From a bacterium HR25 (GTDB taxonomy: Bacteria > Chloroflexota > Dehalococcoidia > SM23-28-2 > HRbin24), in contig BEIB01000001.1 of NCBI GenBank assembly GCA_002898615.1, forward strand, positions 1 to 64,000: a stretch of DNA of 64,000 bases, in the 5' to 3' direction. A model generated the notes under the pieces. The model saw nothing but the letters and a program-made list of their open reading frames with translations. It ran no database searches and was not told the DNA's origin. The position numbers and the translations under genes were made by a program. Positions 24,166-59,569 of this stretch are shown here, in pieces; within the stretch, counting starts at the first letter, position 1, and every line of letters starts with the position of its first letter.

Positions 24166-24396
24166 CTCTCGGCTCTCCTCGCCAGGGGGCTGGACGTCTG
24201 GCCAGGCGACCCCTGGAGGTCTCGTACTATCTTATCACCTGCTGGCGCCGGCACGACCGACGACGCCCTAGGCCAACGCAGCAGCGCTCATCAGCGGTAG
24301 CACCGGCCGCTTGTGACGCTCCGGCCGATGGCGCGCCGTCCTCTCCCTCCTAGACTCGTCCCTATAGCTGGTCGTCCTCGTGCAAGGAGGTCAGAA
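24166..24396. promoter_or_regulatory. Divergent intergenic region
   Basis: This 231-nt spacer separates the divergent DUF1616 and Asp-box/thrombospondin genes and should hold both promoters. Its only AT-rich core is at about 24225-24240 (GTACTATCTTATCACC), which could supply a -10 in either direction. A strong AAGGAGGT Shine-Dalgarno at 24385-24392 serves the + strand gene. Confidence 0.4.
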
Positions 24397-27300
24397 ATGT
24401 TGTCCGGGCCAGCCCGCCGCCCTTGGGGCCTGCTCCTGGCCGGTGTGCTCCTGGCCGTCCTCACGGCCTTGGCCTTCGGGAGCGATAGCCCCGCTCTGCC
24501 CGGCCTGGGAGGGCCGCGCCTGGCCCAGGCCATCCCGCCCCACTCCCCGGCGCTGGACACCGACGACGATGACGACGATATCCTCGTCAAGGACCGGGAC
24601 AGGGACGGCGTCCCGGACTCCACCGACAACTGCCCCCGCACGGCCAACGCCAGTCAGGAGGACACGGACGGTGACGGTCGGGGCGATGCCTGCGACCCTG
24701 ACCTGGACAATGACGGCGTCCCCAACACGGCCGATAAGCGCCCCGTGCCCGCCGGGCCGGGCGTGCGGGCCCTGGATGCCACCACCACGGACAGCGATGG
24801 CGACGGCGTTCCCGACGCCTCCGATAACTGCCCTTTCGTCCCTAACGCCAGCCAGGAGGACACCGACCGGGACGGCATCGGCGATGCCTGCGACACCGAT
24901 GGCGACAACGACGGCGTCCCCGACAGCAGCGACAACTGCCCCCAGGACCCCAACCCCGACCAGGTCGACAGCGACGGCGATGGCGAGGGTGACGCCTGTG
25001 ACCCAGTGGCCGAGGTCTTCTACGTCAGGAGTACCGACGGCGGTCAGACCTTCGGCAACTACTACAACATCAGCAACGACGGCCTCCACTCCGGCATCGC
25101 CCATGTGGCCGCCAGCGGCGGCGTAGTGCACATCGTCTGGGACAGGGGAGATGAGCCGCGCGAGGTAGTCTACCGGCGCAGCCTGGACGGCGGCGTCTCC
25201 TTCGCCCCCATCTTCAACGCGAGCAGCAACAACGGCGACTCCAGCGAGTCCGACCTGACTGTGGGCGGGAGCGTCCTGCACGTGGTCTGGGAGGAGGACG
25301 TGCTGGACGCCAACGGCAACCCCGACCCCTGCTGCCCGGGAGACGAGGCCTACTACCGCCGCAGCGGCGATGCTGGCCAGACCTTCAGCGCCAGCCGTAA
25401 CCTGAGCCAGACGCCCAACGCCCATTCCCGCGACCCGGATGTGGCCACCAGCGGCAACCTGGTGGGCGTCGTCCACGAGGACCCTACCCCGGGCAACGAT
25501 GACATCTTCTTCGAGCGCAGCACCGACGGCGGCCTCACCTGGTCCACCTTCGTCAACCTGAGCCAGGACGCCGGGCAGTCCGCCGAGCCGGCCATAGACA
25601 TCTCTGGCAATACCGTTCACGTGGTGTGGGAGCACCGCGCCTCCGGGCGCATCGCCTACGTCCGCAGTACCGATGGCGGTGTCACCTGGAGCGCTCCCCT
25701 CCTCCTGCCCGCCGGCGCCGACAGAGCGGCGATAGTGGCGGCCTCCGGCAGTACCGTCCACGTGGTGGCCTGCGGCGGCGGCGAGGTGCGCTACTACCGC
25801 AGCACAGACGGCGGCGCCACCTGGGGCGCTCCCGTCAACCTCTCCAACAACCCCGGCGCCTGCAGCAAGCCCATGGTGGACGTGTTAGGGGACCAGGTCT
25901 ACGTGGTGTGGGAGGACACCACCACCGGCGCCAGCGACGTCTACCTCCGCCGCAGCAGCGACGGCGGCATCACCTTCGCGCCCACTCAGAACCTGAGCAA
26001 CAACGCCGGTGAGTCCTCTGAGCCCTCGGTGGCGGTGGACCCCTCCACCGGGCACGTCTACGTGGTCTGGTACGACTTCACCAGGCCCACGCCACCAGCG
26101 GCGCCCGCCGACGCCGACAGCGATGGCGTGGCCGACCCCTCCGACAACTGCCCTGGCGTGGCCAACCCGGACCAGGCCGACGCGGATGGCGACGGTCAGG
26201 GCGATGCCTGCGACCCGGACGATGACAACGATGGCGTTCCCGACGCCTCCGACAATTGTCCCTTCGCCGCCAATGCTGCACAGACCGACACCGATGGCGA
26301 TGGCCAGGGTGACGCCTGCGATAGCGACGATGACGGCGACGGCGTGGCCGATCCCTTCGACAACTGCCCCCTTGTCCCCAACGCCGGTCAGGAGAACACG
26401 GACGGCGATGGCCAGGGCGACGCCTGCGATGACGACGATGATAACGATGGCATTCCCGACGCCTCCGATCCCTGCCCCCTGCAGTCGGACTGCGACAGCG
26501 ACGGCGTCCCCGACAGCTCCGACAACTGTCGTCTGGCCTTCAACCCGGCACAGCAGGACTCCGACGGTGACGGCACCGGCGACGCCTGTGACACCGACGG
26601 CAACCCTATGCTCGCCTTCGTGGCCGCCGGTCCGGGCGGCGCCACTCTCTACGAGTTCGGCCGCGGCACCACGGGCGAGATATGGTACCGGGCCTGGGAC
26701 GGCACCGCCTGGAGCGCCTGGACGGGCCTGAGTGCGGTGGCCAACAGCCCCCCGACGGTGGCGACCTCTGGCGCTGACCTCTACGTATTCGCTCGGGGGA
26801 GCGACGACGGCCTCTGGTACCGTCGGCTGAGCGGCGGCACCTGGGATGCCTGGACGCCCCTCGGGGGGACGATGCGGGGCGTGCCGGCCGCCGTAGCCAC
26901 CGCTGGCGGTCATATCTACGTCTTCGTGCGGGGCGCCAGCGGCGATATCTGGTACCGTCACTGGGACGGCACCGCCTGGCAGCCCTGGGCCTCCCTGGGC
27001 GGCCTGGCAACGGAATCGCCAGGCGCCTTGGCACTGGACAGCGAGGTCTTCCTCTTCGTCCGGGGGAGCGACGACGGCCTCTGGTACCGTCGGCTGAGTG
27101 GCGCCACCTGGGGCGACTGGGCCTCCCTGGGCGGGCCGGTCAGCAGCGGCCCCCGGCCGGTGGCTCTGGGCAGCGTCGAGGCCGATGTCTTCGCCCGGGG
27201 CACCGACAATGCCGTCTGGTACCGCCACTGGGACGGCACGACCTGGGGCGCCTGGCAGACCCTGGGCGGCAGCCTGCACAGCCCGCCCCAGCCGCTGGCC

Positions 27301-27558
27301 GTTGGCGGGAGCCTCTTCTTGATGGCCCTGGGCACCGGCGATGACCTCTGGTACCGGCAGCTCAGCGGCGGCACGTGGGCGGACTGGCAGCCCCTGGAGG
27401 GACGGCTGACGGCCGCCCCCGCCCTAGTGGCCTTCCAGAGCGGCGCCTTCGTCTTCGGCCGGGGCAGCGAGGGCGACGTCTGGTACCGCCACTGGGATGG
27501 CACGACCTGGGGCGCCTGGCAGCCCCTGGGTGGCCTGGTGACTGCAGGCGTCCCGTGA
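24397..27558 (+). CDS. Large secreted protein: thrombospondin type-3 repeats plus two beta-propellers
   Basis: Protein of 1053 aa with a signal peptide (about 8-47). Calcium-binding thrombospondin type-3 repeats (DxDxDGxxDxxDNC) fill about 60-205. Seven Asp-box motifs follow (205-565), then a second thrombospondin-3 block (568-735) and seven PLL/DUF346-like blades to the end, strictly alternating WYRHWDG and WYRRLSG types. The two propellers match those at 8800-11055, so the thrombospondin blocks look like insertions into a common scaffold. It is likely a Ca-stabilised surface or matrix protein that binds glycans (inference). The start was set by AAGGAGGT five bases upstream. Confidence 0.82.
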
Positions 27559-48171: not shown

Positions 48172-49473
48172 TCAGGCCTCCACTCGCAAGAAGTTGCCGA
48201 TCTCAACCACTACGTCCAGCTTCTCCACGTCGGCGATGGTGGCCCGCACGGCGGCCTCCCGCGCGGCATGGGTCATGATGACGATCTCCGCCGTCTGGGC
48301 CGCCTCGTTGGTCTCCTTCTGGATGACGGAGGCGATGCTGACCTGGTTATCGCCGAAGCAGCGGGCGATCTGGGCCAGCACTCCCGGGCGGTCCGTCACC
48401 TGCATTCGAATATAGTAGCGGCAGACCAGGTCGTCCATCTTTTTTATGGGGAGGGAGACCTGGGCCCGCCAGGGGGTGGGCGGCCGCCCGTGGGACAGGG
48501 CCTGGGCGGCGTCCAGGACATCGGCCAGGACAGCGCTGGCGGTGGGGGACGCCCCTGCCCCCGGCCCCTGGAAGACGACGCGCCCCACCAGGTCTCCCTC
48601 TACCTCGATGGCGTTGAGGACGCCGTCCACCTTGGCCAGGAGGGCCTCCTGGGGCAGGAGGACGGGATGGACGCGGGCCTCCAGAGCCGCCCCGTCGGGG
48701 CTGTCGTCGCAGCGGGCGATGGCCAGCAGCTTGATGGCATAGCCCAGCTCGCGGGCGTAGCGGAAGTCCTGGGCGGCCAGGCGGCTTATCCCCTCGCGGT
48801 AGACCTCGTCGGGCGGGACATGGGTGTAGAAGGCCAGGCTGGCCAGGATGGCCAGCTTGTAGGCGGCGTCGTGTCCCTCGATGTCGTTGGTGGGGTCGGG
48901 CTCGGCGTAGCCCAGCTCCTGGGCCTGGGCCAGGGCGGTCCGGAAGTCCAGCCCCTCCCGGTCCATGCGAGTGAGGACGTAGTTGGTGGTGCCGTTGATG
49001 ATGGCCCTGAGCCCCCTCACCGTGTTGGCGGCCAGGTCACGTTTCAGAGGGGCGACGATGGGTATGCCGCTGCCCACGCTGGCCTCGTAGAGGAGGTCCA
49101 CGCCCCGCTCGTGGGCCAAGGAGATGAGCTCCGGGCCGTGACGGGCCATGACCTCTTTGTTGGCGGTGACGACGTAGCGCCCCCGCCCCAGGGCCTCTCG
49201 GATGTAGCGGTAGGCAGGGTCCAGGCCCCCCATCACCTCCACCACTATGTGGACCTGGTCGTCCTCCAGCACGGCGGCGGCGTCGGTGGTGAGGAGGGAG
49301 GGCTCCACGAAGACGGGGCGGGGCTTGTCCGCGGTGCGCACCAGGACCCGTCGCAGGCGGAGAGGCCGGCCCAGCCGCTGGGCTATGGCCTCGCCCTTCT
49401 CCAGGAGGGCGCGGGCCACCCCGCTGCCTACCACTCCCAGCCCCAGCAGGGCGACGTTGATGGGCTCCACCAC
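48172..49473 (-). CDS. hom: Homoserine dehydrogenase with C-terminal ACT domain
   Basis: Protein of about 433 aa that reduces aspartate semialdehyde to homoserine. NAD(P)-binding GLGVVGSGVA, TANKEVMARHG, the NGTTNYVL and the catalytic region EPDPTNDIEGHDAAYK are all present. A C-terminal ACT domain (VTDRPGVLAQIA) suggests feedback control by threonine. AGGAGG precedes two tandem GTG codons (49473, 49470); either may be the start. Confidence 0.94.
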   Translation of the reverse strand: MVEPINVALLGLGVVGSGVARALLEKGEAIAQRLGRPLRLRRVLVRTADKPRPVFVEPSLLTTDAAAVLEDDQVHIVVEVMGGLDPAYRYIREALGRGRYVVTANKEVMARHGPELISLAHERGVDLLYEASVGSGIPIVAPLKRDLAANTVRGLRAIINGTTNYVLTRMDREGLDFRTALAQAQELGYAEPDPTNDIEGHDAAYKLAILASLAFYTHVPPDEVYREGISRLAAQDFRYARELGYAIKLLAIARCDDSPDGAALEARVHPVLLPQEALLAKVDGVLNAIEVEGDLVGRVVFQGPGAGASPTASAVLADVLDAAQALSHGRPPTPWRAQVSLPIKKMDDLVCRYYIRMQVTDRPGVLAQIARCFGDNQVSIASVIQKETNEAAQTAEIVIMTHAAREAAVRATIADVEKLDVVVEIGNFLRVEA

Positions 49474-49483
49474 CCGCGCCTCC

Positions 49484-50572
49484 TCAGTAGACCTGGTCGA
49501 CGACCCAGCGGATCTTGGTCTGGTCACCGTTGGCCAGGTCCATATGGTTGACGATGGTGAGGCCCCTCCGCTTCTCCTGGACCCAGTCGCGGTAGCGCTT
49601 GAGGGCCACTAGCTGCTTCTCCCCGGGCCCCAGGGCGCGGTTGGAGTCCTTCTCCAGCACCTGCACTATGAAGACCAGCCCTGTCTCGGGGTGGATGTAC
49701 TTGCCGACGCCACCCGGCTCCAGGGCGAAGATGACATTGGCCAGGTCGTCGTTCATGGCGCCGCGGGGCACCCAGCCTACTTCTCCCCCCTGGCCCCGGG
49801 TGCGGGTGTCTATGGACTCCTGCCGGGCCACCGCGGCGAAGTCCTCGCCCCCCTGGATGCGACCGATGATCTGGTCCGCTCTGGCCGCCTCCTGGAGGAC
49901 GATCTGGCGGAAGTGGACGCTCTCCATGTTGTCCGGCACCTGCTGCTGCAGGTGGTCCAGCGCCTTCTGGGCCAGCAGCTCCCCACCGACGATGCGCCGG
50001 TACTCCTCGTCCGTCAGGCCGGTGCGCTCCAGCTCCTGACTGTAGAGCTGCTGGAAGGGGTCCGGGGTGGGGCTGGGCACCGGGGGAGTGGGAGAGGGGG
50101 GCTGGTCGCCACCCTGGGCGGGCGGCGTCTCCGCCGGCGGCAGCAGCCCCAGGCGCTCCCGGATGGCCTCCTCGATCTCGCTGGGGGAGACGGAGACCCC
50201 CAGCTCGCCAGCGTAGCGGTAGAGGATCTCCTCCTCGATAATGCGGTCGGCGACGCTGGGGATGGCGTTGGCCGGCTGGGCGGCCTGACTGCCAGCGCCC
50301 CCCACCTGCTGGACGTAGAGGGCCAGGCGCTCCTTGAAGTAACGGAGGCTGTAGCGGGAGTCTGCTACCTGGAGGGCTAGGCTGCCGGGGCGGGTGAACT
50401 CCTCCCAGTAGCCGCGTGCTACGGAGAAGATGGCCAGGCCGGCGCCGGCCAGGAGGAGGAGGACGACGCCCAGGAGGGCGGCCAGCCGGCCTGGATGGCC
50501 CCAGAGGTCGGAGCGGCCGGCCACCTCCCAGGGGGGTGTGGGGACTTTACCGGCTCGTCTCTTTCTCGGCAC
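49484..50572 (-). CDS. Membrane-anchored PpiC-type peptidyl-prolyl isomerase
   Basis: Protein of 362 aa with an N-terminal transmembrane helix (about 29-52), a SurA_N-like helical domain (65-210) interrupted by a Pro/Thr/Gln-rich insert near 143-170, and a parvulin domain (about 215-310; VHFRQIVLQ, GGEVGWVPRG). It should assist folding of exported proteins. GTG start at 50572. It occupies the place after rpsR where many genomes have rplI. Confidence 0.88.
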   Translation of the reverse strand: MPRKRRAGKVPTPPWEVAGRSDLWGHPGRLAALLGVVLLLLAGAGLAIFSVARGYWEEFTRPGSLALQVADSRYSLRYFKERLALYVQQVGGAGSQAAQPANAIPSVADRIIEEEILYRYAGELGVSVSPSEIEEAIRERLGLLPPAETPPAQGGDQPPSPTPPVPSPTPDPFQQLYSQELERTGLTDEEYRRIVGGELLAQKALDHLQQQVPDNMESVHFRQIVLQEAARADQIIGRIQGGEDFAAVARQESIDTRTRGQGGEVGWVPRGAMNDDLANVIFALEPGGVGKYIHPETGLVFIVQVLEKDSNRALGPGEKQLVALKRYRDWVQEKRRGLTIVNHMDLANGDQTKIRWVVDQVY

Positions 50573-51941: not shown

Positions 51942-52733
51942 ATGACCAAGGACTGGCGGCGGCTGCGCAGGGCCCTCCAGGAGGGAAGGCTGCGGCTGTA
52001 CTGTCAGCCCATCCTGGACCTGCGCAATGGCCAGGTATCCCGCTATGAGCTGCTGCTGCGTCTGAGGGAGAACGGCGTCACGCTGACCGGGGCCTCCTTC
52101 CTCTGGGCGGCGGAGGAGCTGGGCCTGATCCAGGAGATAGACTTCTGGGTGGTGGGGAGAGCGGTGGCCCTTCTGAGGCAGCTTGACAACCCCACCTGTG
52201 CCGCGGGCCCCCATCTGGAGCTGCATGTGAACCTCTCCGGCCGCACCCTGTCCGACCGTTCCTGGTGGGGGCCCATCGAGAAGGAGCTGAGGGCGGCGGG
52301 CGATCTGTCCCGGCGGCTGGTCTTCGAGGTGACGGAGACGGCGGCCATCGAGGACATGAACGATGTGCGACGGTTCATGGAGGGGCTGTGCGCCCTGGGC
52401 TGTCGCTTCGCTCTGGACGATTTCGGCGTGGGCTACTCAGGCTTCTATCGCCTGCGCAGCCTCCCCTTCCACTTCCTGAAGGTCGATGGCGCCTTCGTGC
52501 GGCACCTGCCCCGCAGCAGCACCGACCAGCTGCTGGTGCGCTCCATAGCCATGGCCGGGCGCATCCTGGGGCTGGGCACCATCGCCGAGCAGGTGGAGGA
52601 CGAGGCCACCGTTCTGCTCCTGCAACGCTTCGGCGTGGACTACGCCCAGGGCTTCTACGTGGGGCGGCCCCGTCCCGTGGAGGAGGAGTGGCCCTGTACC
52701 ATCCCCCTCACCTGTCCAGGGGATCTCCGTTAA
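51942..52733 (+). CDS. Stand-alone EAL-domain c-di-GMP phosphodiesterase
   Basis: Protein of 263 aa made of a single EAL domain. The catalytic set looks complete: Glu36 (YELLL variant of EAL), Asn97, Glu129, Asp159-Asp160 (LDDFG), Lys180 (LKVD), Glu216/Glu219 and Gln236. It should linearise c-di-GMP to pGpG. No sensor or membrane domain is fused. Its 3' end overlaps the convergent OsmC-family gene by 26 nt. Confidence 0.9.
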   Translation: MTKDWRRLRRALQEGRLRLYCQPILDLRNGQVSRYELLLRLRENGVTLTGASFLWAAEELGLIQEIDFWVVGRAVALLRQLDNPTCAAGPHLELHVNLSGRTLSDRSWWGPIEKELRAAGDLSRRLVFEVTETAAIEDMNDVRRFMEGLCALGCRFALDDFGVGYSGFYRLRSLPFHFLKVDGAFVRHLPRSSTDQLLVRSIAMAGRILGLGTIAEQVEDEATVLLLQRFGVDYAQGFYVGRPRPVEEEWPCTIPLTCPGDLR

Positions 52734-53199
52734 GGATAACCCGCGTCCGCACGGGGGTGGCGTGGGCCAGGGCCTGCTCCACGTAGCAGCCGGCGCTGGC
52801 CAGTCTCACTAGGCGGGCTATCTCCTCCGGAGGAGCTGGCGATTCCACCTCCAGCTCCAGGTCGAAGCCGTCGCAGCCGGTCTGAAGGGTGCCGGCCAGG
52901 GCGGAGCCCTCGCTCCAGAAGCGGCCCACCACGCGGGCGCGGACCTTCTCCAGGGGAACTTTGAGACGGCGGGCCAAACTGGCCGCCACGGCCAGCGTTC
53001 AGAGGCCCAGCGCCGCCACCAGGTAGGCCAGCGGGGTGGGGGCGGAGCCGTCTCCCCCGGCCGCCGGCCCCTCGTCCGAGAAGATGTGGAAGTAGCCGCT
53101 GTGTTCGGAGCCGGCGCGCGCCCGCCGCAGGTGGGCCGTCAGGAGCTCGGCGTCCGCCTCGTAGGTGAACTCGCGGCGCTTCGGCTTGGTCTCGCTCAT
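52708..53199 (-). CDS. OsmC/Ohr-family protein with in-frame TGA (predicted selenocysteine)
   Basis: Read through one TGA, the frame gives 163 aa with the OsmC fold: PTPLAYLVAALGL, then codon 67 (TGA, 52999-53001), then TLAVAASLARRLKVPLE. Residue 67 is where OsmC/Ohr peroxidases have the peroxidatic Cys; the second Cys is kept as Cys138 (SAGCYVEQAL), and the family's C-terminal strand PVRTRVILNG is intact. AGGAGGTG lies upstream of the ATG at 53199. The downstream half has no ribosome binding site of its own. A SECIS-like hairpin follows the TGA. OsmC-like selenoproteins are known in other bacteria. The alternative is a nonsense mutation; no sel genes lie in this window. Confidence 0.8.
52966..52989 (-). 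promoter_or_regulatory. Bacterial SECIS-like stem-loop
   Basis: Starting ten bases after the TGA, the mRNA can fold into a stem of two G-U plus seven Watson-Crick pairs with one bulged C, closed by the five-base loop AGUUU (52980-52976). The loop begins 19 bases after the TGA, as in E. coli fdhF, and has a G within its first two bases followed by U. A competing smaller hairpin (CUGGCC/GGCCAG) exists in the same stretch. Confidence 0.6.
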
Positions 53200-53235
53200 G
53201 GGGCACCTCCTGTCCCGTATTGTGCCACAAAGGGA

Positions 53236-53262
53236 GGGGACGGCCCACCGTGGGCCGTCCCC
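53236..53262 (-). terminator. Hairpin between cyclase gene and OsmC-family gene
   Basis: Perfect 12-bp stem (53236-53247 with 53251-53262) around a 3-nt loop, 28 nt after the stop of the cyclase-family gene. No T-tract. Confidence 0.6.
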
Positions 53263-53290
53263 GCGTCGTTGCCCTCCGCTGAGGGGCGGG

Positions 53291-54526
53291 CTAGGGGGTG
53301 CCGCGGGCCCGGCGGCCGGGCCGTGGCTGCCCCAGGGCGGCCGGAGCCGTGTTGCCACCCGTGGCTCCCTTGGCGTACTGGGGCGTCCAGATGAAGACGA
53401 ACTCGTACACGCCGTCCTCAGCCAGATCCTCGCTCCTTATCCCCTCGCCGATGCGGATGCCGTAGCGGAGGAAGAGGAGCTGATGGACGGGGAAAGCGAT
53501 GCCAGAGTGAAGGCCCGGGACCACCTCCAGGCCCCAGGTGTCGCTGCCGATGATGGCCGGCCGGTGGTTCCCCAGGAAGCGGGCCTCCCTCAGGTAGATG
53601 CCGGGCTCGGAACGCAGGTAGCGGCTGGGGTCCAGGCTGGCCAGGTGCGTCCAGCCGGTACGGAAGAGGACCACGTCCCCTGGCCTGATCTGCCCGATAC
53701 CAGCACGCCGCATCGCCTCCCGGATGTCGTCCAGGGTGATGCGATAGTTGTCCCGCAGAATCCTGAGGCCGGAGCCGGTGGTGGAGAGGGCTGAGGTCGC
53801 CCCCTGGGATATCTTGAGGCCCAGGATGTCCAGGAGGATGCCCCGGGTGACGATGGGTCCCATGTGCTCGTTGCCCAGGGCACTGGTGCCCCAGGGCTCG
53901 GTCATCTCCGGCACCGTGTGGCCGTTGTAGTACATGCGGCCCACGCCCACGTGGTTGAGGCCGTCCAGCTGAGTGGCTATCTGGTAGGTGGTACTGAGGC
54001 GCTCCTCGTGGAAGGTGAGGCGGTTGGCCCCCAGGGGCGTGGTGCTGGCCACGATGCCGCCATTCTCCCGGAAGCCCGGGCCCGGCTCGTAGCCGAAGAC
54101 GAAGAGGCGCTGCCTGTACTCGCGAGGTGGCGTGACCGGAAAGGCGGGGAAGCCCTCCACCAGCAGCTCTCCCAGGTTGTAGGTCTTCACCGGGCGGCCG
54201 TTGGCCAGGATGCGTAGGGCCTCCGCCGTCTTCTCCGGCGTCACCTCGTTGAAGGTGCCCCGCTGGTCGCCCAGGCCGTAGGGGCCGGGGAACCAGGCGC
54301 CGTTCTCCACGGCGTCGACGTCGAACATATCGTCCGTGGGCTCTTCGAAGGGGAAGCTGCCGGCGGAGGCGGGCCGGCTGGTCACCGGCGGCAGGCCGGG
54401 GTGCAGGCGGGAGGCGCCGGCGTAGGCCAGGAGGCCAGCCGCCCCGGCCTTCCCCGCCAGCTTGAGGGCCTCGCGACGGCTCACCTTCGTCCCGTAGAGA
54501 TGGGCCAGGAAGTACTCGAACTTCAT
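53291..54526 (-). CDS. Tat-exported cyclase-family (kynurenine formamidase-like) protein
   Basis: Protein of 411 aa. A twin-arginine signal SRREALKLAGKAGAAG is at about 19-34, preceded by an 18-residue extension. The catalytic part belongs to the cyclase family PF04199: TQLDGLNHVG replaces the usual HxGTHxDxPxH metal motif and is followed by YYNG, and RPGDVVLFRTGW and GSDTWGLE are family landmarks. The loss of the first His in THxD (here Gln) resembles a known subgroup. It probably hydrolyses an amide or lactone outside the membrane. The ATG at 54526 follows GGGGGTGG. Confidence 0.82.
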   Translation of the reverse strand: MKFEYFLAHLYGTKVSRREALKLAGKAGAAGLLAYAGASRLHPGLPPVTSRPASAGSFPFEEPTDDMFDVDAVENGAWFPGPYGLGDQRGTFNEVTPEKTAEALRILANGRPVKTYNLGELLVEGFPAFPVTPPREYRQRLFVFGYEPGPGFRENGGIVASTTPLGANRLTFHEERLSTTYQIATQLDGLNHVGVGRMYYNGHTVPEMTEPWGTSALGNEHMGPIVTRGILLDILGLKISQGATSALSTTGSGLRILRDNYRITLDDIREAMRRAGIGQIRPGDVVLFRTGWTHLASLDPSRYLRSEPGIYLREARFLGNHRPAIIGSDTWGLEVVPGLHSGIAFPVHQLLFLRYGIRIGEGIRSEDLAEDGVYEFVFIWTPQYAKGATGGNTAPAALGQPRPGRRARGTP

Positions 54527-54817: not shown

Positions 54818-54892
54818 TGGTGGGCGATGGAGGACTCGAACCTCCGACCTTCTCGGTGTAAGCGAGACGCTCTGCCACTGAGCTAATCGCCC
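54818..54892 (-). tRNA. trnV: tRNA-Val (anticodon UAC)
   Basis: A complete 75-nt cloverleaf on the - strand: acceptor GGGCGAT/ATCGCCC, D-arm GCTC/GAGC, anticodon stem TCTCG/CGAGA with loop CTTACAC (anticodon TAC), T-arm GGAGG/CCTCC with TTCGAGT, and an encoded 3' CCA. Confidence 0.96.
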
Positions 54893-54985: not shown

Positions 54986-55037
54986 CGTGGCGAAAGCCCC
55001 TCGACATAGACGAAATCTCGCTTTCTGGGTGGTGGCG

Positions 55038-56717
55038 ATGTCCTCTGCTAAGGGAGAGCAGCGCAGCAAGAGCAAGGCAGACTGGCTAGAGAGGCAGTAC
55101 CGCCCGTCCCTGGAGCAGCTCCCCGAGAGAGAGGAGCCCATGGAGACCTCCTACGGGCAGCCGGTGGAGCCTCTCTATACCCCGGAGGACCTGGACGGCT
55201 GGAGCTATGAGGAGCGGCTGGGCTATCCCGGCGAGTACCCCTACACCCGCGGCATCCGGCCCAGCATGTACCGCGCCCGCTTCTGGACCATGCGCCAGTA
55301 CGCAGGCTTCGGCGATGCCGAGGAGTCCAACCAGCGTTACAAGTATCTGCTCTCCCAGGGCCAGACCGGCCTCTCCGTTGCCTTCGACCTGCCCACCCAG
55401 ATAGGCTACGACTCCGATGACCCCATGGCCGAGGGGGAGGTGGGTAAGGTGGGGGTGGCTATCTCCTCCCTGGCCGATATGGAGCTCCTCTTCAAGGACA
55501 TCCCCCTGGAGAAGGTCACCACCTCCATGACCATCAACGCCACGGCGGCCATCCTGCTGGCCCTCTACGTGGCGGTGGCCAAGAAGCAGGGGGCGGACCT
55601 GCGGAAGATCAGCGGCACCATCCAGAACGATATCCTGAAGGAGTACATCGCCCGCGGCACCTACATCTTCCCCCCCAAGCCGTCCATGCGCCTGATAACG
55701 GACATCTTCGCCTGGTGTAAGGACAACCTGCCCCGCTGGAACACCATCAGCATCAGCGGCTACCACATGCGGGAGGCCGGCTGCACGGCTGTGCAGGAGG
55801 TGGCCTTCACCTTCGCCAACGCCATCGCCTACGTGCAGGCCGCCCTGGACGCTGGCCTGGAGATAGACGAGTTCGCCCCCCGCCTCTCCTTTTTCTTCGC
55901 CGCCTACACCAACCTGCTGGAGGAAGTGGCCAAGTTCCGGGCAGCCCGGCGCCTCTGGGCCCGCATCATGAAGGAGCGCTTCGGCGCCCGGGACCCCCAG
56001 TCTCTCATGCTCCGCTTCCACACCCAGACCGGGGGCGCCACCCTCACCGCCCAGCAGCCGGAGAACAATATCATCCGCACCGCCATCCAGGCGCTGGCGG
56101 CGGTGCTGGGAGGCACCCAGTCCCTCCATACCAACTCCTGGGACGAGGCGCTGGCCCTCCCCAGCGAGCGGGCGGTCCAGGTGGCCCTGCGCACCCAGCA
56201 GATCATCGCCTACGAGTCCGGCGTGGCCGATGCCATAGACCCGCTGGGCGGCTCCTACTACTTGGAGAAGCTCACCGACCAGATAGAAGAGGAGGCGCAG
56301 CGCTACATCGACCGTATAGACGACATGGGGGGCGCCCTGGCCGCCATCGAGATGGGCTACCAGCAGCGGGAGATCCAGGAGGCGGCCTGGCGCTTCCAGC
56401 AGCAGGTGGAGGCCGGTAAGCGGGTGGTGGTGGGGGTCAACCGCTTCCGCACCGCCGAGGACGGCCCGCCCGGCGAGATCCTGCGGGTGCGGCCGGAGGT
56501 GGTCAAGCGGCAACTGGAGCGGCTGCGGCGCGTCAGGGCGGAGCGGGACAACGCCCGCGTCCAGTCCCTCCTGGGGAAGCTGGAGGAGGCCGCCCGCTCC
56601 GACGCTAACATGATGCCGGTGCTCATCGAGTGCGTGGAGAACTACGTCACCGTAGGCGAGATCTGCCGCGTCCTGCGCCAGGTCTGGGGCGAGCAGCGGG
56701 AGTTCATGGTCTTCTAG
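55038..56717 (+). CDS. Methylmalonyl-CoA mutase, large (substrate-binding) subunit
   Basis: Protein of 559 aa that, with its B12 subunit, interconverts methylmalonyl-CoA and succinyl-CoA. The TIM-barrel landmarks are [12 protein letters not shown] (67-78), [34 protein letters not shown] and [11 protein letters not shown] with His243. It lacks the C-terminal B12 domain, which is encoded separately at 58201-58622. The start was set by the promoter; a GTG at 54987 is possible. Confidence 0.94.
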
Positions 56718-56814
56718 CCTGGCCCGCCCCAAGGAGAACGAGAGGAGCTGGGAACCGCACCCCGTGGCCGGCCGGGCCGCGCTGGTGTGCCCTATCACCC
56801 GCCGGGAGGTAGTC

Positions 56815-57273
56815 ATGGGCAAGCAGGAGCTCATAGCCGAGGCCGAAGAGACCTTCCAGCAGCTATGGCAGGCCGTCAGTGCCCTGCCGGAGGAGGCGGC
56901 CACCCGGCCCTGGCTGGGCGAGTGGTCGGTCAAGGACGTCCTGGCCCACATCGCTGGCTGGCACCGCGAGATGGCCGGCGTCTTGGAGCGGATGGCCCGG
57001 GGCGAGCGCCCGGTGCCCGAGGGCGTGGACTACAACGACACCGATGGCTGGAACGCTCGCTTCGCCCAGGCCCACAAAGGGACCCCCTGGCCCCAGATGC
57101 TGGCGGAGCTGCGCGCCAGCAAGGAGGCCTTCCTGGCCGCCGCCCGTCAGGTGCCGGACGACCGCTTCGAGGAGGGGCGGGCGGCCCACCGCATCATGCA
57201 GGGCACCGGCACCCGCCACTACCGCGAGCACCTGGAGCAGATAGCCGAATGGCGTCAGAGGGAAGGGCTTTGA
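56815..57273 (+). CDS. DinB-superfamily protein
   Basis: Protein of 152 aa with the four-helix DinB fold. Metal-binding candidates are the histidines of VLAHIAGWHREM and HYREHLEQI. The family includes thiol-dependent S-transferases, but no specific activity can be assigned. GGGAGGTAGTC precedes the ATG. Its stop overlaps the TTG start of the epimerase gene, so it is part of the methylmalonyl-CoA operon. Confidence 0.82.
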   Translation: MGKQELIAEAEETFQQLWQAVSALPEEAATRPWLGEWSVKDVLAHIAGWHREMAGVLERMARGERPVPEGVDYNDTDGWNARFAQAHKGTPWPQMLAELRASKEAFLAAARQVPDDRFEEGRAAHRIMQGTGTRHYREHLEQIAEWRQREGL

Positions 57274-58073
57274 TCAAGAAGGTTCATCACATAGGCATCG
57301 CCGTGGCCGACCTGGCGGCCAGCCTCGGTTTCTACCGTGACGTGCTGGGCCTCCCTTTCCACAAGGAGGCGGAGGTCAAGGAGCAGGGCGTCCGGGCGGC
57401 CCTCCTCCTGGCGGGGGAGAGCGAGATAGAGCTGCTGGAGCCCACCGCGCCGGAGACGCCGGTGGGCCGCTTCCTGGCCCGCCGGGGCGGCGGTCTTCAC
57501 CACATCTGCTTCGAGGTGGAGGACGTGGCCGCGGAGCTGGCCGCCCTCAAGGCCCGCGGCGTGGAGCTGGTGGACCAGGAGCCCCGCCAGGGGCTGGCCG
57601 GCATCATCGCCTTTCTCCACCCGCGTGCCCACCGCGGCGTACTGGTGGAGCTGGCCCGTCCTCCGCAGGAGGAACGCCACGCCGCCCCCTCGCCCCTGGT
57701 AAGGCGGCTCCGCTACGTCCTCATCGGCGCCGAAGACCCGGCCGATGCCCTGGCCCGCTACGAGGCGAACCTGGGCCTCCGGGCGGCGGCGAGCGGGGAC
57801 GGCCCGGCGGGGCAGGTGACGGTGGGGGAGTCCCTCCTCCTCGTCCTCACCGCCGAAGAGGCGCGGCCCCACCTGCCGGTGGGCACGGAGGCGGGGGAGG
57901 GGCTGCTGGCCCTGGGCCTGGAGGTGGGCGACCTGGAGGCGGCCGTGGAGCACCTCCGGCAGCGGGGCGTGGAGGTATCCGCCCCGGCCCCGGGCATCCT
58001 GCCGGGGACGCGGGCCGCCAGCGTGGCCCCCGCGGCCAGCCACGGCGTCCCTCTCCACCTGGTGGGGACCTAG
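57270..58073 (+). CDS. mce: Methylmalonyl-CoA epimerase fused to a second VOC domain
   Basis: Protein of 267 aa. Residues 1-132 form a standard epimerase (KKVHHIGIAV with His7, IELLEP, GGGLHHICFEV with His78, VLVELA with Glu127), which converts (S)- to (R)-methylmalonyl-CoA. Residues 145-267 form a second glyoxalase/VOC-like domain (RLRYVLIGAEDPADALARYE) with few metal ligands, probably structural or regulatory. Epimerases are normally about 135-150 aa. The TTG start overlaps the DinB stop. Confidence 0.86.
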   Translation: MIKKVHHIGIAVADLAASLGFYRDVLGLPFHKEAEVKEQGVRAALLLAGESEIELLEPTAPETPVGRFLARRGGGLHHICFEVEDVAAELAALKARGVELVDQEPRQGLAGIIAFLHPRAHRGVLVELARPPQEERHAAPSPLVRRLRYVLIGAEDPADALARYEANLGLRAAASGDGPAGQVTVGESLLLVLTAEEARPHLPVGTEAGEGLLALGLEVGDLEAAVEHLRQRGVEVSAPAPGILPGTRAASVAPAASHGVPLHLVGT

Positions 58074-58120
58074 GCCGGGCCTCCCGGGGGCGACGTCCCC
58101 ACGCAGGCGCGTCTGTTGCA

Positions 58121-58161
58121 GCCCCCGGGGGAGCGGGGACGGCCCCGCTCCTGCGGGGGGC
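58121..58161 (+). terminator. Long GC hairpin after the epimerase gene
   Basis: Inner perfect 9-bp stem (58130-58138 with 58143-58151) and an outer 6-bp stem (58121-58126 with 58156-58161). It separates the epimerase from the B12 subunit, which has its own -10. Confidence 0.65.
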
Positions 58162-58171
58162 AGCCATACTA

Positions 58172-58177
58172 TATAAT
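58172..58177 (+). promoter_or_regulatory. TATAAT -10 before the B12-subunit gene
   Basis: Perfect TATAAT followed by CGGCC; AGGAGG and the ATG at 58201 follow. No clear -35. A similar ATATAATCGGC occurs at 59572. Confidence 0.45.
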
Positions 58178-58200
58178 CGGCCCTAGGAGGGAGTGGCCCA

Positions 58201-58622
58201 TGACGCAGGAGCGCAAGGTAAAGATCGTCATCGCCAAGCCTGGGCTGGACGGACACGACCGCGGCGCCAAGGTGGTGGCCCGCGCCCTGCGGGACGCTGG
58301 CTTCGAGGTGGTATACACCGGGATCCGGCAGACGCCGGAGATGATCGCCGAGACGGCCCTGCAGGAGGACGCCGATGCCGTCGGCCTCTCCATCCTCTCG
58401 GGGGCGCACCTGGAACTCTTCCCCCGCGTCGTGGAGGAGCTCCGGAAGCGGGGCCTGGACGATGTCGTCCTCTTCGGCGGTGGCATCATCCCCCAGGAGG
58501 ACATACCGGAGCTGGAGCGCGTGGGCTTCAAGGCCATATTCGGACCTGGCACCTCCACCGAGGAGATCGTCGAGTGGGTGAGACAGAACGTCCGGCCGCG
58601 GGGAGTGGGAGTGAAGTCGTGA
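58201..58622 (+). CDS. Methylmalonyl-CoA mutase, B12-binding subunit
   Basis: Protein of 140 aa, a free-standing cobalamin-binding domain. The base-off/His-on motif is LDGHDRG (Asp17, His19, Gly22), followed by LSILSGAH and LFGGGIIP. It completes the mutase encoded by 55038-56717. AGGAGG precedes the ATG. Its stop overlaps the GTG start of meaB. Confidence 0.95.
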
Positions 58623-59569
58623 TCCGAGAGCTGGTGGATAACGCCCTGGGCGGCGACAGGCGGTCGCTGGCCCGCCTGTTGAGCCTGGTGGAGAACGGTT
58701 ACTCCGAGGGGCGAGAGGCGCTGCGCCTCCTTTACAGGCACACCGGACGGGCCCATGTGGTGGGCATCACCGGCGGCGCCGGGGCCGGCAAGAGCACCCT
58801 CATCTTCGCCCTGGCCCGGGAGCTGCGAAAGCGGGGGCTCACCGTGGGTGTGGTGGCGGTGGACCCCACCAGCCCCTTCACCCAGGGCGCCCTCCTGGGA
58901 GACCGCGTACGTATGCAGGGGCTTACCTCGGACCCCGGCGTGTTCATCCGCAGCATGGCCAGTCGGGGCGCCGTGGGCGGCCTGGCCCCCGCCACCCTGG
59001 ACGTGGTCACCGTCCTAGACGCCGTGGGACGGGACGTCATCATCGTGGAGACGGTGGGGGCCGGCCAGGACGAGGTAGAGATAATGGACGCTGCCCACAC
59101 GGTGGTGGTGGTCGTCGTTCCTGGCACGGGAGACGAGATACAGGCCATCAAGGCGGGCATCCTGGAGATCGCCCACATCCTGACCGTCAACAAGGCCGAC
59201 CTCCCCCGCGCCGACCTACTGGCCAACTACCTGGCGGAGTTCGTCAACCTGGAGAAGGGGGATGGCTGGCGAGTGCCCATAGTGAAGACGGTGGCCATCA
59301 AGGAGGGAGGAGTGACGGAGCTGGTGGAGGCGCTGGAGACGCACCGCCGCCATCTGGAGCAGTCCCCGGCCCGGGAGGAGATGGAGACGGAGCGGGCCCG
59401 GCGCCGTCTGCTGACTGCCCTCCGCTCCCAGTTGTGGGAGCGGTCTTTGCGCATCGCCCAGAGGGACGGTGCCCTGGAAGGGCTGGCGCGGGCCATCGCC
59501 GCCCGCGAGATGGACCCCTACACCGCCGCTGCTGGCCTGCTGGAGTCTGCCCTTCGCCCCGAGAGCTAG
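58619..59569 (+). CDS. meaB: Methylmalonyl-CoA mutase GTPase chaperone (MeaB/ArgK)
   Basis: Protein of 316 aa. A G3E-family GTPase that protects and reactivates the mutase. Walker [10 protein letters not shown] is at 52-60, followed by [19 protein letters not shown], the [10 protein letters not shown] switch and the guanine-specificity motif NKAD. The GTG start at 58619 overlaps the B12-subunit stop, so synthesis is coupled. Confidence 0.95.

Follow-up and report, generated by a model that had tools for sequence, protein, structure and literature searches.

On the minus strand of the window (the whole 64,000-nucleotide stretch of contig BEIB01000001.1 from bacterium HR25 analysed here), positions 53199 to 52708 translate as a single frame of 163 codons when TGA is read as selenocysteine (U, Sec). 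The only internal stop of this frame is the TGA at 53001-52999, corresponding to residue U67, and the terminal stop, at 52710-52708, is TGA as well. The first-pass annotation, made from the letters of the window, had placed an OsmC-family gene at 52708..53199; these coordinates are right, and the strand, which it did not name, is minus. It had also described two open pieces in one frame with a single TGA (52999-53001) between them, of which the downstream piece lacked a ribosome binding site, and had predicted that gene callers would split the gene. Each of these points is borne out. Translation with TGA as U joins the pieces, no Shine-Dalgarno-like sequence is apparent by eye close upstream of the GTG at 52989, and the mechanical open reading frame (ORF) list gives 52999-53358 and 52708-52989 as separate entries, the second of which the databases carry as a protein of its own (cluster P0002). 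The features of the locus are as follows, where rows are those of the 49-row alignment described below.

52708..53199, minus strand: osmC-like gene, one frame of 163 codons read through (Pfam OsmC, 56.9 bits; NCBIfam NF041052, 151.8 bits)
53206..53211, minus strand: AGGAGG, a Shine-Dalgarno-like sequence six bases 5' of the ATG at 53199-53197 (seen in the sequence)
52999..53001, minus strand: predicted selenocysteine codon, in-frame TGA at residue 67 (same column in 41/41 TGA rows, Cys in the 8/8 others)
52968..52987, minus strand: core of the predicted SECIS hairpin, with one bulged base and an apical loop at about 52980-52976 (AGUUU or GUU) (hairpin there in 41/41 TGA rows; window alone, p=0.11)
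52786..52788, minus strand: codon of C138, the second Cys and presumed resolving residue (Cys in 49/49 aligned rows)
52708..52989, minus strand: false short ORF 3' of the TGA, with a GTG start at 52989 (ORF list; database cluster P0002)
52999..53358, minus strand: false ORF 5' of the TGA (mechanical ORF caller's list)

The gene context offers no hint of function. In the window (54818-54892), as at the orthologous locus of HRbin24 (L012), a tRNA-Val is found upstream of osmC on its strand, and at both loci osmC seems to be followed by an EAL-type gene (at L012, by eye). The gene directly upstream differs between the two by eye, and in the window it encodes a putative cyclase (PF04199). The EAL-domain gene of the window (51942-52733, plus strand) converges with osmC (52708-53199, minus strand), and the two overlap by 26 bases. 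Farther along, at 54987-59569, a gene of the methylmalonyl-CoA mutase large-subunit type stands close to a MeaB-type GTPase gene.

We also searched the window for frames that a TGA interrupts and whose two sides both have coding composition; five places came up, osmC included. In each of the other four, two consecutive genes seem to share a frame and to be separated by a normal stop, and we set these places aside. Elsewhere in the window, 24313-27558 encodes a protein of 1081 residues that combines seven stretches of thrombospondin type 3 repeats with a BNR-like part; it scores 159.9 bits against a model of Omp28-related selenoproteins, below the cut-off of 200, probably on account of the repeats.

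The joined protein matches Pfam OsmC at 56.9 bits (cut-off 27.5); the part after the TGA scores 30.2 bits alone, and the part before it, alone, has no match to Pfam OsmC. Against the NCBIfam model NF041052, named 'OsmC-related (seleno)protein', the joined protein scores 151.8 bits, where the curated cut-off is 95. An AlphaFold2 model built from 34 aligned sequences has a mean pLDDT of 96.1; its top fold matches in the PDB are OsmC/Ohr structures (1lql first, also 2onf and 6mjn), and the nearest solved chain by sequence profile is 3cje. With a predicted OsmC fold and two conserved redox residues, a predicted Sec and a Cys, the modeled protein is assigned to the OsmC/Ohr superfamily. The fold and the two-residue layout are common to the window protein and these Cys-type structures, which have Cys at the first position where the window has the predicted Sec.

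We then looked for the same gene in relatives. A protein search gave two clusters, P0002 (93 residues, 9 contigs, possibly including the window's own; 99% identical) and P0003 (97 residues, 4 members, 1 contig; 71% identical), both of which begin at the same codon 3' of the TGA. No relative was found when genome contigs were scanned with the joined OsmC protein. The same scan with the nearby homoserine dehydrogenase (48172-49527) returned 11 loci, including one in HRbin24 (L001, 77%) and one in a Chloroflexota metagenome-assembled genome (L002, 69%); among plasmids, tblastn found five records that are 28.5-31.2% identical. The HRbin24 genome (G001), reached via L001, holds an orthologue that is 67% identical and contains one TGA, together with a second copy (L014, 1501-1974) that is 49% identical to the window's osmC, also with one TGA, and has a strong hairpin of its own with the loop 19 nt past the UGA. 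A distant osmC copy without a stop is also present in G001, and another in G002, which belongs to the same order.

Within the class (393 genomes), the search at E <= 1e-8 gave 31 matching places. Each of the 19 best, which lie in 18 genomes, has one TGA, and the other 12, which match more weakly, have none. The TGA-containing gene is thus patchy, occurring in 18 of 393 class genomes in a count not corrected for kinship; in the order (25 genomes) it is found only in G001 and G063, with weaker, stop-free matches in two genomes and no match in 21. Among the matches listed for 400 phylum genomes, 28 genes, spread over 27 genomes, score above the NF041052 cut-off, and 27 of these 28 contain one TGA. 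The remaining gene, L075 (genome G650, 1501-1926), has TGC in the Sec column, has no hairpin and reads straight through.

We aligned the window protein with 40 distinct TGA genes, all from one phylum, and 8 Cys-type homologues (49 rows; L071-L073, L085 and L096 were left out as repeats of genes already taken, and TGA-bearing matches under the NF041052 cut-off from G555, G583 and G086 were also left out). The latter three (G555:C117, G583:C200 and G086:C2) are observed TGA-bearing matches in their own right, and two of them are partial. Comparison with Cys-containing homologues had been proposed in the first-pass annotation as a check on its reading of a joined 163-residue OsmC protein with the TGA at the catalytic Cys, and the result agrees with that reading: the TGA falls in one column in 41/41 TGA rows, that of the catalytic Cys, and all 8 of the other rows have Cys there. 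The internal stop of the 40 aligned relatives, which reach down to about 30% identity, is always TGA and never TAA or TAG, and the aligned stretch contains no second stop. D42, E43 and the second Cys are present in 49/49 rows; the last of these, C138 (codon 52788-52786), had been noted earlier as retained. The motif at the TGA is U-T-L-A (UxxA) in the window, whereas the TGA rows mostly have UxxT (33/41), with UxxS in 7/41. Three of the 8 Cys rows have a Glu nine positions ahead of the Cys; the window has A58 at this position, and none of the 41 TGA rows has Glu.

Both sides of the TGA evolve as coding sequence. We computed dN/dS by the Nei-Gojobori method separately before and after the TGA, obtaining 0.40 and 0.36, respectively, for the window against the HRbin24 orthologue, and 0.67 and 0.52 against the G063 orthologue. 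Eleven further pairs of relatives gave nine values, ranging from 0.01 to 0.26, with dS saturated in two. The stretch 3' of the TGA is under purifying selection, and the decay of the frame around the TGA that would have spoken against a selenoprotein is not seen, with dN/dS below 1 on both sides.

Past the UGA, all 41 TGA rows can form a hairpin with a stem of 5-9 contiguous pairs, in which the loop starts 18-20 nt past the UGA and a G falls within the first two loop bases. The 8 Cys rows, L075 included, form at most 4 contiguous pairs. Stem pairing covaries, with several pair types per level (level 4, for example, occurs as GC, CG, TA, AT and GT). When codons were resampled synonymously, holding the protein constant, the TGA rows had a mean hairpin energy of −10.2 kcal/mol vs. 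−4.0 kcal/mol for the resamplings, and the Cys rows −0.8 vs. −2.0 kcal/mol. Individually, 24 of the 41 TGA rows reached p<0.05 and 17 had p>=0.05, as compared with 1 of 8 Cys rows at p<0.05. Because the hairpin measure was fixed after the first folds had been viewed, the Cys rows are the fairer control. Tested alone against synonymous resampling, the window's hairpin is not significant (p=0.11), and when the 52 bases beginning with the TGA of the window gene are simply folded, nothing stands out (z −0.50). No Rfam family matches the hairpin, the tRNA-Val being the only hit in the window at gathering scores. A small apical loop with a guanosine is described as a feature common to bacterial SECIS elements in the part of PMC1088965 available to us.

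The genes for decoding UGA as Sec are present in the two closest relatives examined. HRbin24 (G001), the nearest relative examined, and G002 both contain tRNA-Sec (74.9 and 74.3 bits, respectively; cut-off 47; ARAGORN anticodon tca), selB (325.0 and 360.7 bits; cut-off 242.25), selA (583.7 and 559.1 bits; cut-off 267.9) and selD (363.0 and 366.2 bits; cut-off 125). The lower-scoring tRNA-Sec matches that were checked are tRNA-Ser. The selD genes of G002 (L034) and G001 (L035) have one in-frame TGA each, in the motif CAGUAGK; judged from this motif, selD is likely itself a selenoprotein in both genomes, so that osmC seems not to be the only gene of the order in which UGA stands for Sec.

More broadly, among the matches listed, selA is matched in 271 of the 393 class genomes (253 above the cut-off) and in 18/18 class genomes with a TGA-containing osmC (17 above the cut-off, G357 partial). 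The association within the class has a hypergeometric p of 0.001, uncorrected for kinship. All 21 further phylum genomes with a TGA-containing osmC have a selA match as well (20 above the cut-off, G693 partial). The gene is common in the phylum anyway, occurring in 15 of 18 background genomes, which were the first listed without an NF041052 match rather than a random draw, and in the Cys-form genome G650. The expectation that a Cys gene would sit in a genome without Sec machinery was accordingly rejected. Among the matches listed, selB exceeds its cut-off in 20 of 21 tested genomes with a TGA-containing osmC (not in G537) and in 4 of 10 class genomes without a selA match, the ten being the first listed of that kind.

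Taken together, the sequence comparisons point to one OsmC-family gene in which the UGA at residue 67 is very likely decoded as Sec by the ordinary SelB/tRNA-Sec route, probably directed by the hairpin. The proposal of a probable selenoprotein in the first-pass annotation is thus supported by the TGA column (41/41), the hairpin (41/41), the machinery in G001 and G002 and the purifying selection.

We weighed this reading against three others. The TGA could be a real stop, yielding two half-proteins or a regulated truncation to which read-through is irrelevant. Sec decoding and termination compete at UGA, so some truncated product is likely, and the databases carry the second half as a separate protein. 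A functional stop would, however, cost the protein its catalytic residue, and by eye the second part has no ribosome-binding sequence; the 40 aligned relatives use TGA only, never TAA or TAG, in its place, and L075, the sole Cys gene scoring above the family cut-off, is uninterrupted. We therefore consider a real stop very improbable. A UGA that is a sense codon genome-wide (for Trp, Gly or Cys), or that a near-cognate tRNA decodes without Sec, is a little less probable again. We found no support for either, and TGA ends 22 of the 42 window genes picked by composition, while osmC itself also ends in TGA; as the commonest stop in this set, it is therefore not a sense codon throughout. Moreover, the residue replaced is always the OsmC Cys, and the hairpin stands behind the UGA.

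The TGA is one base away from TGC or TGT, as would suit a sequencing error or a pseudogene. Yet the stop recurs in P0002 (9 contigs), in P0003 and in the 40 aligned relatives, the most distant of which are about 30% identical, and both of its sides are under purifying selection, leaving this the most improbable of the three, with hardly any weight. The sequencing error that the first-pass annotation had itself named as a possible refutation is very unlikely given P0002, P0003 and the 40 TGA relatives.

If the UGA is read as Sec, SelB carrying GTP and Sec-tRNA-Sec would bind the hairpin, and Sec would be placed at residue 67 in lieu of termination. By analogy with OsmC/Ohr chemistry, the U67 selenolate would then attack a peroxide or similar electrophile, the resulting species would form a selenenylsulfide by condensing with C138, and the enzyme would be regenerated by a dithiol of the dihydrolipoyl or thioredoxin type. 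That Sec raises the peroxidase activity toward organic hydroperoxides, as the first-pass annotation held, is a guess.

OsmC-like selenoproteins have been in print since 2005; three sequences with the motif UxxT were reported from the Sargasso Sea (PMC1088965). They are listed, again with UxxT, for the GOS data (PMC2398784), and they appear in reviews from 2022 (PMC9312934) and 2026 (PMC13188914), as far as the excerpts of these four papers extend. The earlier statement that such proteins are known in some bacteria is confirmed by NF041052 and by the excerpted PMC1088965. By their published description, in the excerpts rather than in an alignment, the Sargasso Sea and GOS proteins (PMC1088965, PMC2398784) resemble the window protein in having Sec for Cys and a hairpin past the UGA, and differ in having UxxT where the window has UxxA. 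The window protein passes the NF041052 cut-off, most of its phylum relatives above that cut-off share the TGA, and we see no difference that would exclude it; the window gene very likely adds one more member to a selenoprotein family that was known before. A search of open-access titles for selenocysteine or selenoprotein with Chloroflexota, Dehalococcoidia or Chloroflexi returned none on this OsmC family, which does not imply that it is unreported, and NF041052 was not found by name in the open-access literature search. On the predicted reading, the gene is distinctive in having UxxA in place of UxxT and in belonging to a family that, within the phylum, is patchy but uses Sec almost throughout.

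We next considered how Sec and Cys are distributed over the family. A tree of 58 rows (the 49 aligned and 9 further Cys OsmC sequences) needs three Sec-Cys changes, and a single origin of Sec in this tree is possible. L075 is placed among the Sec rows with support of 91/50, a value that leaves its exact position unsure, and it looks like a Sec-to-Cys change. The other Cys row among the Sec rows, L099, has a very long branch. We tentatively suggest, at somewhat less than even chances, that Sec is ancestral and nearly obligatory in this OsmC subfamily of the phylum, and that L075 represents a return from Sec with loss of the hairpin. The subfamily lacks the usual helix Glu and may have a substrate that is not a simple organic hydroperoxide; in the order to which the window belongs, UxxT may have drifted to UxxS and UxxA.

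The finding corrects a gene that is kept in the databases as a truncated half (P0002 and P0003). It also provides a well-sampled OsmC set whose hairpin is clearly recognizable and which includes a natural Cys gene lacking it, and matched Sec/Cys pairs from this set could directly test what Sec contributes to OsmC chemistry.
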